Shown here piece after piece: positions 1 through 2,495 of a stretch of DNA of 39,316 nucleotides. The notes under the pieces are model-generated. The model worked only from the letters and a program-made list of their open reading frames with translations, made no database searches and was not told the origin of the DNA. Source of the DNA: Deltaproteobacteria bacterium (GTDB lineage Bacteria; Desulfobacterota; Syntrophobacteria; BM002). Each line of letters starts with the position of its first letter. Positions within the stretch are counted from its first letter, which is position 1. The stretch spans positions 2,429,279 through 2,468,594 of the forward strand of contig CP070689.1 of assembly GCA_020353155.1 (NCBI GenBank). Direction: 5' to 3'. A program made the position numbers and the translations under genes.

Positions 1-661
1 AAGCCATGAGATTCGGAATCCCCTTGGAATCATTGGTTCTACCGCCCAGCTTCTCCATCATAAAATGGATGAGGGTGACCCAAAAAAACAGCTAGGTGAG
101 ATAATTATGCAGGAGACGACTCGTCTCAACTCAATCGTCACAAATTTTCTGGATTTTGCCCGACCCACTACTCCAAACTACTCTGAGTGCAGAGTAGATA
201 TGGTTTTGAAGAGAAACCTGAAATTCCTAGAAGTTGAACTTGAACGACGAGACATTAGGGTGGAGCTTCGCTTTGCCGAAAATGGCAGACCAGTTATGGC
301 CGATGGTGATCTTTTGTATCGCGCTTTCCTTAACATTTTTGTCAATGCCATGGAAGCGCTGGAAGGTGGTGGCACTATTAGGGTAGTTACTCGGTATCGA
401 GATCGCCAAGAAGATACTCTGGAGGTTATTATTGCGGATACCGGTTCCGGTATTTCTAAGGCTGATATAGGTAGAATATTCGACCCTTTCTTTACTACTC
501 GCAAGACGGGAACCGGATTAGGACTTGCCATAGTCCGAAACATAATCGAAAGCCACGGCGGCACAGTCGATATCAAGAGTCCACCTCCGGAAGAATTGAC
601 GCAATTAGAAAGGAAGGGAACGGCTATTTTCATTTCTTTGCCGGTGAACCCAGTAGATTAG
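1..661 (+). CDS. Sensor histidine kinase, C-terminal part (5' end outside window)
   Basis: This is the kinase core of a two-component sensor that autophosphorylates on histidine and hands the phosphate to the response regulator encoded next door. The reading frame is open from base 2 and begins inside the H-box (SHEIRNPLG), so the sensor domain lies upstream of the window. The N-box (LYRAFLNIFVNAMEAL) is near 318-365, the G1 box (DTGSGIS) near 438-458, the F-box (FDPFFTTR) near 481-503 and the G2 box (GTGLGLAIV) near 511-537. All residues expected of an active HATPase are present. The H-box and HATPase layout is NtrB/AtoS-like. It ends 101 bp before the sigma54 regulator on the same strand, the usual arrangement of a cognate pair. 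The signal it senses cannot be told from this fragment. Confidence 0.93.
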   Translation, partial: SHEIRNPLGIIGSTAQLLHHKMDEGDPKKQLGEIIMQETTRLNSIVTNFLDFARPTTPNYSECRVDMVLKRNLKFLEVELERRDIRVELRFAENGRPVMADGDLLYRAFLNIFVNAMEALEGGGTIRVVTRYRDRQEDTLEVIIADTGSGISKADIGRIFDPFFTTRKTGTGLGLAIVRNIIESHGGTVDIKSPPPEELTQLERKGTAIFISLPVNPVD

Positions 662-762: not shown

Positions 763-2208
763 ATGGAAACCATTCTTATCGTTGATGATGAAAAGAATTA
801 CCTATTGGTTCTGGAGACACTTTTAACAGATGTGGGTTACGAGGTGCTTACCTGCGACAACGCCAATGAGGCTCTTGAGGTTACCACGAGTCATGACCTG
901 GATCTGGTCATAACTGACATGCGCATGCCTGGTGTGGACGGGATGGAGTTTCTGGCTCAATTGCGGGGTCGTCAACCAGAGATCCCTGTGATCATGATGA
1001 CAGCATACGCCACGGTGGAAAAAGCTGTAGAAGCTATGAAGAGAGGGGCCTTCGACTATATTACCAAGCCTTTCAAGAATGAAGAACTTATCCTAACCAT
1101 TCGTAAAGCCTTAGAGATGCACCGGCTCAAGCGAGAGAACCGTTTTCTCAGCCAGGAACTGCAAGAGCGCTTCAAATTCGGCAACATCGTGGGCAAAAGC
1201 AAGGTCATGCGTCAGGTGTACGAGATTATCGAAAAGGTCGCACAAACGAGGGCATCAGTGCTGATAACCGGCGAGTCCGGTACAGGCAAGGAACTTATCG
1301 CCAGGGCCATTCATTTTAGTAGCCCCAGAAGTGATAAACCTTTTGTTTCGGTTAATTGTTCAGCTTTACCGGAAACCCTTCTCGAGAGCGAGCTTTTTGG
1401 CCACGAGAGGGGTGCATTTACTGGGGCTGTCACTAGACGGAAAGGCCGTTTCGAGCTGGCTCACAACGGAACCTTATTCTTGGACGAAGTGGGTGACATG
1501 TCTCCAGCTCTGCAAGTTAAGTTACTAAGAGTGCTTCAGGAACTGAGATTCGAGCGTGTGGGCGGTACTACAACCTTGCAGGTGGATGCCCGTTTGGTAG
1601 CCGCTTCCAACCGTGATCTCAAACGGGAGGTAGAGCTAGGACGTTTCAGGGAGGATCTCTATTATCGTTTAAAAGTCGTTCACATAAGCGTCCCTCCGCT
1701 CAGAGAACGGCGAGATGACATACCTATTTTGGTTCACCATTTTCTTAGAAAAGTGGCGAAGGCCAACGGGCTTCCAGTAAAAAATCTAAGCCATGAGGCA
1801 CTCAAGCATCTTTACCAGTATGACTGGGTTGGTAATGTCCGCGAGCTGGAGAATGTTATAGAACGGGCAGTAATTCTCTGCGACGGTGGCGAAATTCGGC
1901 CCCAGGACTTACCGGAAGAGCTATTTCAGAAAAGACTTCCAGGGATCACGGGCAAGGAATCGGAGGAAGCCCTGAGTGGACCAGAAATGGCCGGAGCTGG
2001 AGATTTGCTCCCTTACCTTGGTTTGAATGCACGCCAAGTAAAAGCAATTAATTTCATAAGGAAAAACGGTTATATAACCAACGATTACTACATCCAAATC
2101 AACCAAATCTCTGATCGTCATGCCCGACGTGATTTGAGTCAGCTGGTGGAGATGGAGATAGTGGCAAGAGTTGGCGGGGGTAGGAGTACTCGATATGTTC
2201 TTAAATAG
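763..2208 (+). CDS. Sigma54-dependent response regulator with winged-helix C-terminus
   Basis: This is an NtrC-class activator of 481 residues. Residues 1-120 form a receiver domain with the acidic pocket D8/D9, phosphoacceptor D52 (ITDMRMPG) and K102. Residues about 140-385 form the AAA+ domain with Walker A GESGTGKE (170-177), the sigma54-contact loop GAFTGA (217-222) and Walker B LFLDE (239-243). The expected Fis-type helix-turn-helix is missing. The last 65 or so residues (from about 2011), starting LNARQVKAINFIRKNGYITN and ending in a G-rich wing (VGGGRSTRYVLK), resemble the winged helix found at the C-terminus of RecG/Fic-like proteins. It is likely phosphorylated by the upstream kinase. 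Its most obvious candidate target is the sigma54 promoter just downstream. ATG start; the family assignment is firm, the target is inferred. Confidence 0.95.
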   Translation: METILIVDDEKNYLLVLETLLTDVGYEVLTCDNANEALEVTTSHDLDLVITDMRMPGVDGMEFLAQLRGRQPEIPVIMMTAYATVEKAVEAMKRGAFDYITKPFKNEELILTIRKALEMHRLKRENRFLSQELQERFKFGNIVGKSKVMRQVYEIIEKVAQTRASVLITGESGTGKELIARAIHFSSPRSDKPFVSVNCSALPETLLESELFGHERGAFTGAVTRRKGRFELAHNGTLFLDEVGDMSPALQVKLLRVLQELRFERVGGTTTLQVDARLVAASNRDLKREVELGRFREDLYYRLKVVHISVPPLRERRDDIPILVHHFLRKVAKANGLPVKNLSHEALKHLYQYDWVGNVRELENVIERAVILCDGGEIRPQDLPEELFQKRLPGITGKESEEALSGPEMAGAGDLLPYLGLNARQVKAINFIRKNGYITNDYYIQINQISDRHARRDLSQLVEMEIVARVGGGRSTRYVLK

Positions 2209-2252
2209 TCCGGATTATGTCCGGATTATGTCCGGATTGCGTCCGGATTACG
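2209..2252. repeat. Four tandem 11-bp direct repeats (candidate enhancer)
   Basis: Four head-to-tail 11-bp units start on the base after the regulator's stop codon: TCCGGATTATG twice, then TCCGGATTGCG and TCCGGATTACG. The invariant core TCCGGATT recurs every 11 bp, which places each unit on the same face of the helix. The block lies about 124-167 bp upstream of the start predicted for the -24/-12 promoter at 2350, a typical distance for an NtrC-type upstream activating sequence. The role as a binding site is inferred. Confidence 0.8.
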
Positions 2253-2349: not shown

Positions 2350-2365
2350 TGGCAAGAAATTTGCT
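2350..2365 (+). promoter_or_regulatory. Sigma54 (-24/-12) promoter
   Basis: TGGCAAGAAATTTGCT matches the sigma54 consensus TGGCACGN4TTGCW at every defined position but one, with the exact GG-N10-GC spacing (GG 2351-2352, GC 2363-2364). The predicted transcription start is about 2376. No open reading frame of note follows before the terminator at 2456, so the product would be a short RNA. The neighbour upstream encodes a sigma54 activator. Confidence 0.65.
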
Positions 2366-2375
2366 AGTAATGTAG

Positions 2376-2495
2376 TGGCGAGTAAGGATGGTAAGGTTAA
2401 AATAACAATGAAAGCCCTGCCTTCTTGACTCTTCAACTCTTTTTCTCCTTTCTCCGACCGCCTGGATGTGGCCCCGTCCAGACGGTCTTTTTTTT
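2376..2495 (+). ncRNA. Candidate sigma54-dependent small RNA, about 120 nt
   Basis: The segment runs from the predicted sigma54 start to the end of a strong intrinsic terminator. Its only reading frames are trivial (for example MKALPS then stop at 2408). It has a small hairpin GTTA/TAAC at 2396-2406. A pyrimidine-rich unpaired tract, CTCTTTTTCTCCTTTCTCC, lies at 2437-2455 directly before the terminator stem. Such a C/U tract is complementary to Shine-Dalgarno sequences, as in trans-acting sRNAs that block ribosome binding. Existence of the RNA and its mode of action are inferred from promoter, terminator and absence of coding; no homology is claimed. Confidence 0.45.
2456..2495 (+). terminator. 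Rho-independent terminator
   Basis: GACCGCCTGGA (2456-2466) pairs with TCCAGACGGTC (2477-2487) in an 11-bp stem with one mismatch and a 10-nt loop, followed by eight T residues. It sits about 250 bp beyond the regulator stop and is well placed to end the short transcript starting near 2376. Confidence 0.85.

Follow-up and report, generated by a model that had tools for sequence, protein, structure and literature searches.

A predicted small RNA gene at positions 2376 to 2495 of the window (the whole stretch of DNA that was analysed, 39,316 nucleotides) appears from comparison with related genomes to be a real non-coding RNA gene, and it quite likely forms the output of a two-component signalling module. 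The order of the locus on the + strand is the end of a kinase gene, a regulator gene, a set of 11-bp repeats, a sigma54 box, the sRNA, a CIRCE operator, hrcA, grpE, and dnaK (Table 1). The 5′ part of the histidine kinase gene lies beyond the window edge, in sequence that is masked (N). In the proposed pathway, the kinase would phosphorylate the response regulator, the winged-helix tail of the latter would bind the 11-bp tandem array (a step supported by comparison of relatives), and its AAA+ domain would open the sigma54 promoter. The stable RNA expected from this promoter would begin with a 5′ hairpin, continue in an exposed CU-rich linker and end in a terminator, and the linker may lower the translation of several mRNAs by pairing with their purine-rich ribosome-binding sites, probably without Hfq. 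In the alignments the promoter, RNA, terminator, and array are demonstrably conserved together, and the regulator and its putative operator co-vary. The compact kinase-activator-enhancer-promoter-RNA module put forward in the first-pass annotation is largely upheld by the conservation of the unit, by a regulator-free second copy in genome G006, and by an array that is unique to the sRNA gene.

Table 1. Features of the kinase-regulator-sRNA locus (positions in the window).
Feature	Position	Strand	Basis
Sensor histidine kinase gene, 3′ part (HisKA + HATPase_c)	2-661	+	Pfam PF00512, PF02518
Response regulator, NtrC/AtoC-like sigma54 activator (receiver + AAA+)	763-2208	+	PF00072, PF00158
Winged-helix DNA-binding tail of regulator, in place of the usual Fis-type HTH	2032-2205	+	PF08220, fold match, AlphaFold
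Putative enhancer/UAS, TCCGGATTATG repeated four times in tandem with an 11-bp period	2208-2250	+	TRF
Sigma54 promoter TGGCAAGAAATTTGCT (-24/-12)	2350-2365	+	Sequence; invariant in relatives
sRNA gene, transcript predicted at about 117-120 nt	2376-2495	+	Conservation, fold, covariance models
5′ hairpin of sRNA, regular 1x1 mismatches	2376-2435	+	Predicted fold; pairing in relatives
Single-stranded CU-rich linker CUCUUUUUCUCCUUUCUCC	2437-2455	+	Predicted fold, alignment
Invariant linker core UUUUCUCCUUU, anti-Shine-Dalgarno candidate	2441-2451	+	Alignment
Intrinsic terminator, invariant loop GGCCCC + U8	2456-2495	+	Sequence, alignment

The sRNA gene, its promoter and its terminator

The -24/-12 element has the form GG-N10-GC and places the predicted +1 at 2376. 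The first-pass annotation described a sigma54 promoter followed by a gene-free stretch up to a terminator, and this description holds. About 80 bp between the box and the terminator are free of genes, a scan of both strands found no open reading frame of at least 60 aa at 2208-2537, and the ATGs in the predicted RNA open only 5- and 6-codon frames that are absent from the relatives. The annotation's strong stem and T8 are likewise present; it counted 11 bp, and the stem (GACCG-C-CTGGATG / CGTCCAG-A-CGGTC with loop UGGCCC, 2456-2487, followed by T8 at 2488-2495) has 5+7 pairs with one C.A mismatch. The tract ahead of it, which was said to be unpaired, is indeed single-stranded in the predicted fold, whose energy is -37.1 kcal/mol (z -3.5; 1 of 200 shuffled sequences was equally good).

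Pairing in the 5′ hairpin is kept in 82% of cells among 11 relatives, and the terminator shows compensatory changes. Because the genus alignment is 86% identical, it yields modest covariation (four pairs with two-sided change versus a shuffle mean of 1.3); the case for the predicted sRNA rests on conservation, synteny, and an independent model and not on covariation. In a sample covering 37% of the genome, an anti-Shine-Dalgarno (anti-SD) word lies within 22 nt upstream of the stem at 2 of 71 terminator-like sites, and a sigma54 box is in place at none of the 71.

Conservation in the genus and sister genera

The DNA at 2200-2500 is kept in 8 of the 9 other genomes of the genus (9 of 10 with the source included), the ninth (G005) being masked or broken at the sRNA locus, and also in sister genera; the promoter-RNA-terminator unit as such extends from the genus to its sister genera and to a further family of the class. 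The 12 aligned loci all share the box letters TGG-A and TTGC, the core TTTTCTCCTTT, and the loop GGCCCC, and their spacers are variable. The distance from the predicted +1 to CTCTTTT is 62 nt in nine of these loci and 51-55 nt in the rest. Neither the winged-helix regulator nor the sRNA is present in G015 and G019. G012 has no regulator, and its sRNA copy (L012:1500-1580) is decayed, with promoter, anti-SD core, and U-tract all missing; G012 and G019 are incomplete assemblies.

A superfamily in remote families

A covariance search of related genomes, which the first-pass annotation had suggested as a check, recovers copies within the genus as well as in its sister genera and in more distant families. 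Model R1, built mainly from sRNA cores of the source's genus and family together with one f4 sequence, matches copies in every sister genus and, further off, in remote families that include f12 and f56. Model R2 was built from f12/f56 copies alone, promoter included; the source locus is its sole match in the source genome (E=9e-6), and it also recovers copies in f2 (L367), f4 (L013), and L039. These two independent models recover each other's members (superfamily types A and B), and since R2, made from remote relatives, finds the source locus, the latter is a member of a phylum-wide sRNA superfamily. The gene is thus shared by many bacteria of the sulfate-reducer type. Rfam gave no match to the source sRNA or to the superfamily copies at gathering or permissive thresholds, and a search of a plasmid collection gave no match to the sRNA.

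The f12/f56 copies, of which there are up to four per genome, run from a sigma54 box through a 5′ hairpin GUAUAUGAAC...GUUCAUAUAC and a linker CAUUUUCUCCUUUCACC to a terminator whose loop is C-rich. The orthologue of the regulator in these families has a Fis tail, and GTTCAA...TTGAAC-like palindromes lie upstream of the sRNA genes. Such palindrome-like sites (GGTAAAAAATATTGAACCG / GTTCAAATTTTTGAAC) are conserved upstream in L120, L124, L125, L127, L128, and L130, and they probably serve a Fis-type activator as enhancer sites. The f12 copies include a third, shorter type (L385-L390). L120, L127, L128, L367, and L039 contain tandem duplications of the sigma54-sRNA gene in which every copy has a promoter and a terminator to itself.

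It is possible, and we put it forward tentatively, that these genes represent an ancient, phylum-wide, Hfq-independent anti-SD sRNA system of the Thermodesulfobacteriota (Desulfobacterota) that is always driven by a sigma54 activator. One class would then have replaced the Fis tail by a winged helix, and the palindromes by 11-bp tandem repeats, with the RNA output kept.

The regulator and its enhancer array

Regulators of this class terminate in a winged helix. The tail of the source regulator matches HTH_DeoR (PF08220) with 22.9 bits (cut-off 21). Its AlphaFold model (pLDDT 86.6) has the order H-H-H-E-E, and its nearest folds are DIP2311 and the Fic-protein wHTH (8cil). The regulators form one supported clade (96/92) in a tree built without L398; L355 and L359 are labelled Fis there, the label rule having overlooked that they are winged-helix proteins. 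The regulator gene lies immediately upstream of the sRNA in f1, f2, and f4, and the module order regulator - UAS - sigma54 box - sRNA is found in f1, f2, f4, f55, f83, L039, and L043. The order kinase-regulator-sigma54-sRNA occurs again in f83 (L398) and f55 (L399), and regulator-sigma54-sRNA in f2 (L367, with two tandem sRNAs), f4 (L136), L039, and L043. In f3, f5, and f6 the winged-helix regulator is kept with no array or sRNA adjoining it.

At a tolerance of 3 mismatches in 22, the TCCGGATTATG array occurs genome-wide solely ahead of this sRNA in 6 of 6 genomes, and in G006 ahead of both copies; the regulator is therefore dedicated to the sRNA. The first base of the array falls at the regulator stop codon (2208). 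The repeated unit varies among genomes (GACCGATTAAT in G010, GGCCGGATTAT in G017, GCGCGATTATG in G013), but the 11-bp period stays. In G004 the regulator head is 93% identical to that of G000, the tail is 86% identical to that of G010 and 53% to that of G000, and the array is of the G010 type (GACCGATTA), so tail and operator moved together. The adjoining position of the regulator, the unique tandem array, and the co-variation of tail and array mark these as the cognate activator and enhancer sites of the sRNA, and the regulator is predicted to be the protein that activates it.

In G004 (L006:1270-1315) the regulator reading frame runs through the enhancer array, and the operator therefore encodes the final residues of its own activator.

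The linker and its possible targets

In every family examined an anti-SD word precedes the terminator in divergent sequence (CCCUUUCCUCC in f2, UCUCCUCC in f45, UUUUCCUCCUU in f83), and its presence in most remote copies is partly circular because these were found with models containing the CU motif (L367 and L043, by contrast, were recovered through synteny). The retention of an SD-complementary linker despite its changed sequence favours pairing with ribosome-binding sites, and the sRNA probably blocks translation in this manner. Its tract had been proposed as a pairing partner of ribosome-binding sites on first reading; the maintenance of the anti-SD word across families makes this plausible, but no target was found, and for that reason the step is one that we infer. 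Target prediction with the linker at 2437-2455, which had been suggested as a further check, was negative: RNAduplex pairing with 1027 gene starts of the source genome was not stronger than that of five shuffled linkers. Near-perfect targets (AGAAAGGAGAAAAAGAG, with up to 2 mismatches) were about as numerous as matches to the reversed control, and the small number close to gene starts lack conservation across genomes. Nearly all matches in the equivalent search of f12 genomes are the sRNA genes themselves.

A family of paralogous proteins, each of about 137 aa (MKRKDKYLLRVTK...; L220:703-1116, L273-L292), with up to four members per genome, no Pfam or NCBIfam match, and genes that often have GAAAGGAG ribosome-binding sites, was considered as a target on the basis of the pattern GAAAGGAGAAA-N0-7-ATG and its two-block complementarity. 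It was rejected, since GAAAGGAG is a common strong ribosome-binding site and the pattern had been picked to match.

Hfq (PF17209) is below cut-off in 56 of 56 genomes of the class, with control genomes positive, so that another chaperone, or none, would be used. The failure of target pairing to exceed that of shuffled linkers is also what might be seen if the RNA were a CrcZ/CsrB-like sponge that binds a protein or some other RNA through the CU linker and the C-rich loops instead of pairing with ribosome-binding sites. In favour of such a sponge, the terminator loop GGCCCC is invariant even though pairing does not demand it, and C-rich loops are exposed in the f12 copies. We nevertheless think a sponge unlikely, given that the search for Hfq in the class was negative, that GGA motifs are few and AANAANAA is not repeated, and that the recurring element of the remote members is specifically SD-complementary.

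Relation to the neighboring genes

There is no terminator from the regulator stop codon to 2456, and read-through from the regulator mRNA into the sRNA is therefore possible. The kinase-regulator operon could then simply end here in its 3′ UTR and terminator, the GG-N10-GC being a chance occurrence, but this seems very improbable. The sigma54 box is invariant while its flanks vary, the second array-promoter-sRNA copy in G006 has no regulator beside it, and the sRNA genes of f12, f21, f45, and f56 stand alone, those of f12, f21, and f45 with sigma54 boxes of their own. It is less probable still, and hardly to be entertained, that the sRNA acts locally on the adjoining hrcA-grpE-dnaK operon, even though hrcA lies directly downstream at the source locus and in G004 and also adjoins the second copy of G006, because a terminator separates sRNA and hrcA, the copies in f4, f12, f56, and elsewhere adjoin unrelated genes, and hrcA has its own CIRCE operator. 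That operator, at 2716-2742 ahead of hrcA-grpE-dnaK, is a perfect TTAGCACTC-N9-GAGTGCTAA.

Significance and comparison with known systems

If the reading of the locus as a two-component module with an RNA output is correct, a large and poorly studied phylum gains a widespread regulatory RNA family outside Rfam, with a dedicated two-component system and promoter, and it becomes possible to test directly how conserved sRNAs directed at ribosome-binding sites by pairing work where Hfq seems to be missing. G004 would constitute a natural experiment in which the DNA-binding domain of the activator and its operator were exchanged and the RNA output was unchanged. The apparently new elements are a defined RNA superfamily that spans the phylum, the anti-SD signature of this superfamily, the winged-helix form with its tandem repeats, and the joint exchange of tail and operator.

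The arrangement of regulator and sRNA is of a known kind, since in D. vulgaris Hildenborough ncRNA genes lie directly downstream of the response regulators DVU0653 and DVU0679 (PMC3333781, PMC4641369); the one downstream of DVU0679, Dv_sRNA2, is expressed on tiling arrays and its function is unknown (PMC3333781, PMC4641369). There, as at the source locus, a sigma54-dependent two-component regulator is followed by its target sRNA gene. The two D. vulgaris regulators have a Fis-type HTH, whereas the source regulator has a winged helix; the ncRNAs beside them might come to be read as members of the superfamily. Activators of the DVU0151 type resemble the source regulator in being sigma54 activators with a winged helix in place of Fis, but they are one-component proteins that have no receiver domain and control a transport operon (PMC4641369).

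The CbrAB-CrcZ system of Pseudomonas similarly combines a kinase, an NtrC-type activator, a sigma54 promoter, and an sRNA in one unit. CrcZ titrates Hfq/Crc via CA motifs. Unlike CrcZ and CrcY, the source sRNA has no Rfam match, no conserved CA motif AANAANAA, and no Hfq in its class. In LuxO-Qrr (Vibrio) and GlrR-GlmY (enterobacteria), too, a sigma54 activator drives a trans-acting sRNA, which is sometimes multicopy. Qrr and GlmY, however, are Hfq-linked gammaproteobacterial RNAs to which Rfam detects no sequence relation, the source sRNA matching neither the Qrr nor the GlmY-GlmZ family, and assignment to the Hfq-dependent antisense sRNAs fails because Hfq is below cut-off in all 56 genomes of the class. 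Sponges of the CsrB/RsmY type have many loop GGA motifs, in contrast to the two GGA of the source sRNA, which are not kept in the remote members. By its promoter, with GG-N10-GC in 12 loci and in the remote families, the predicted RNA belongs with the sRNAs controlled by sigma54 activators.
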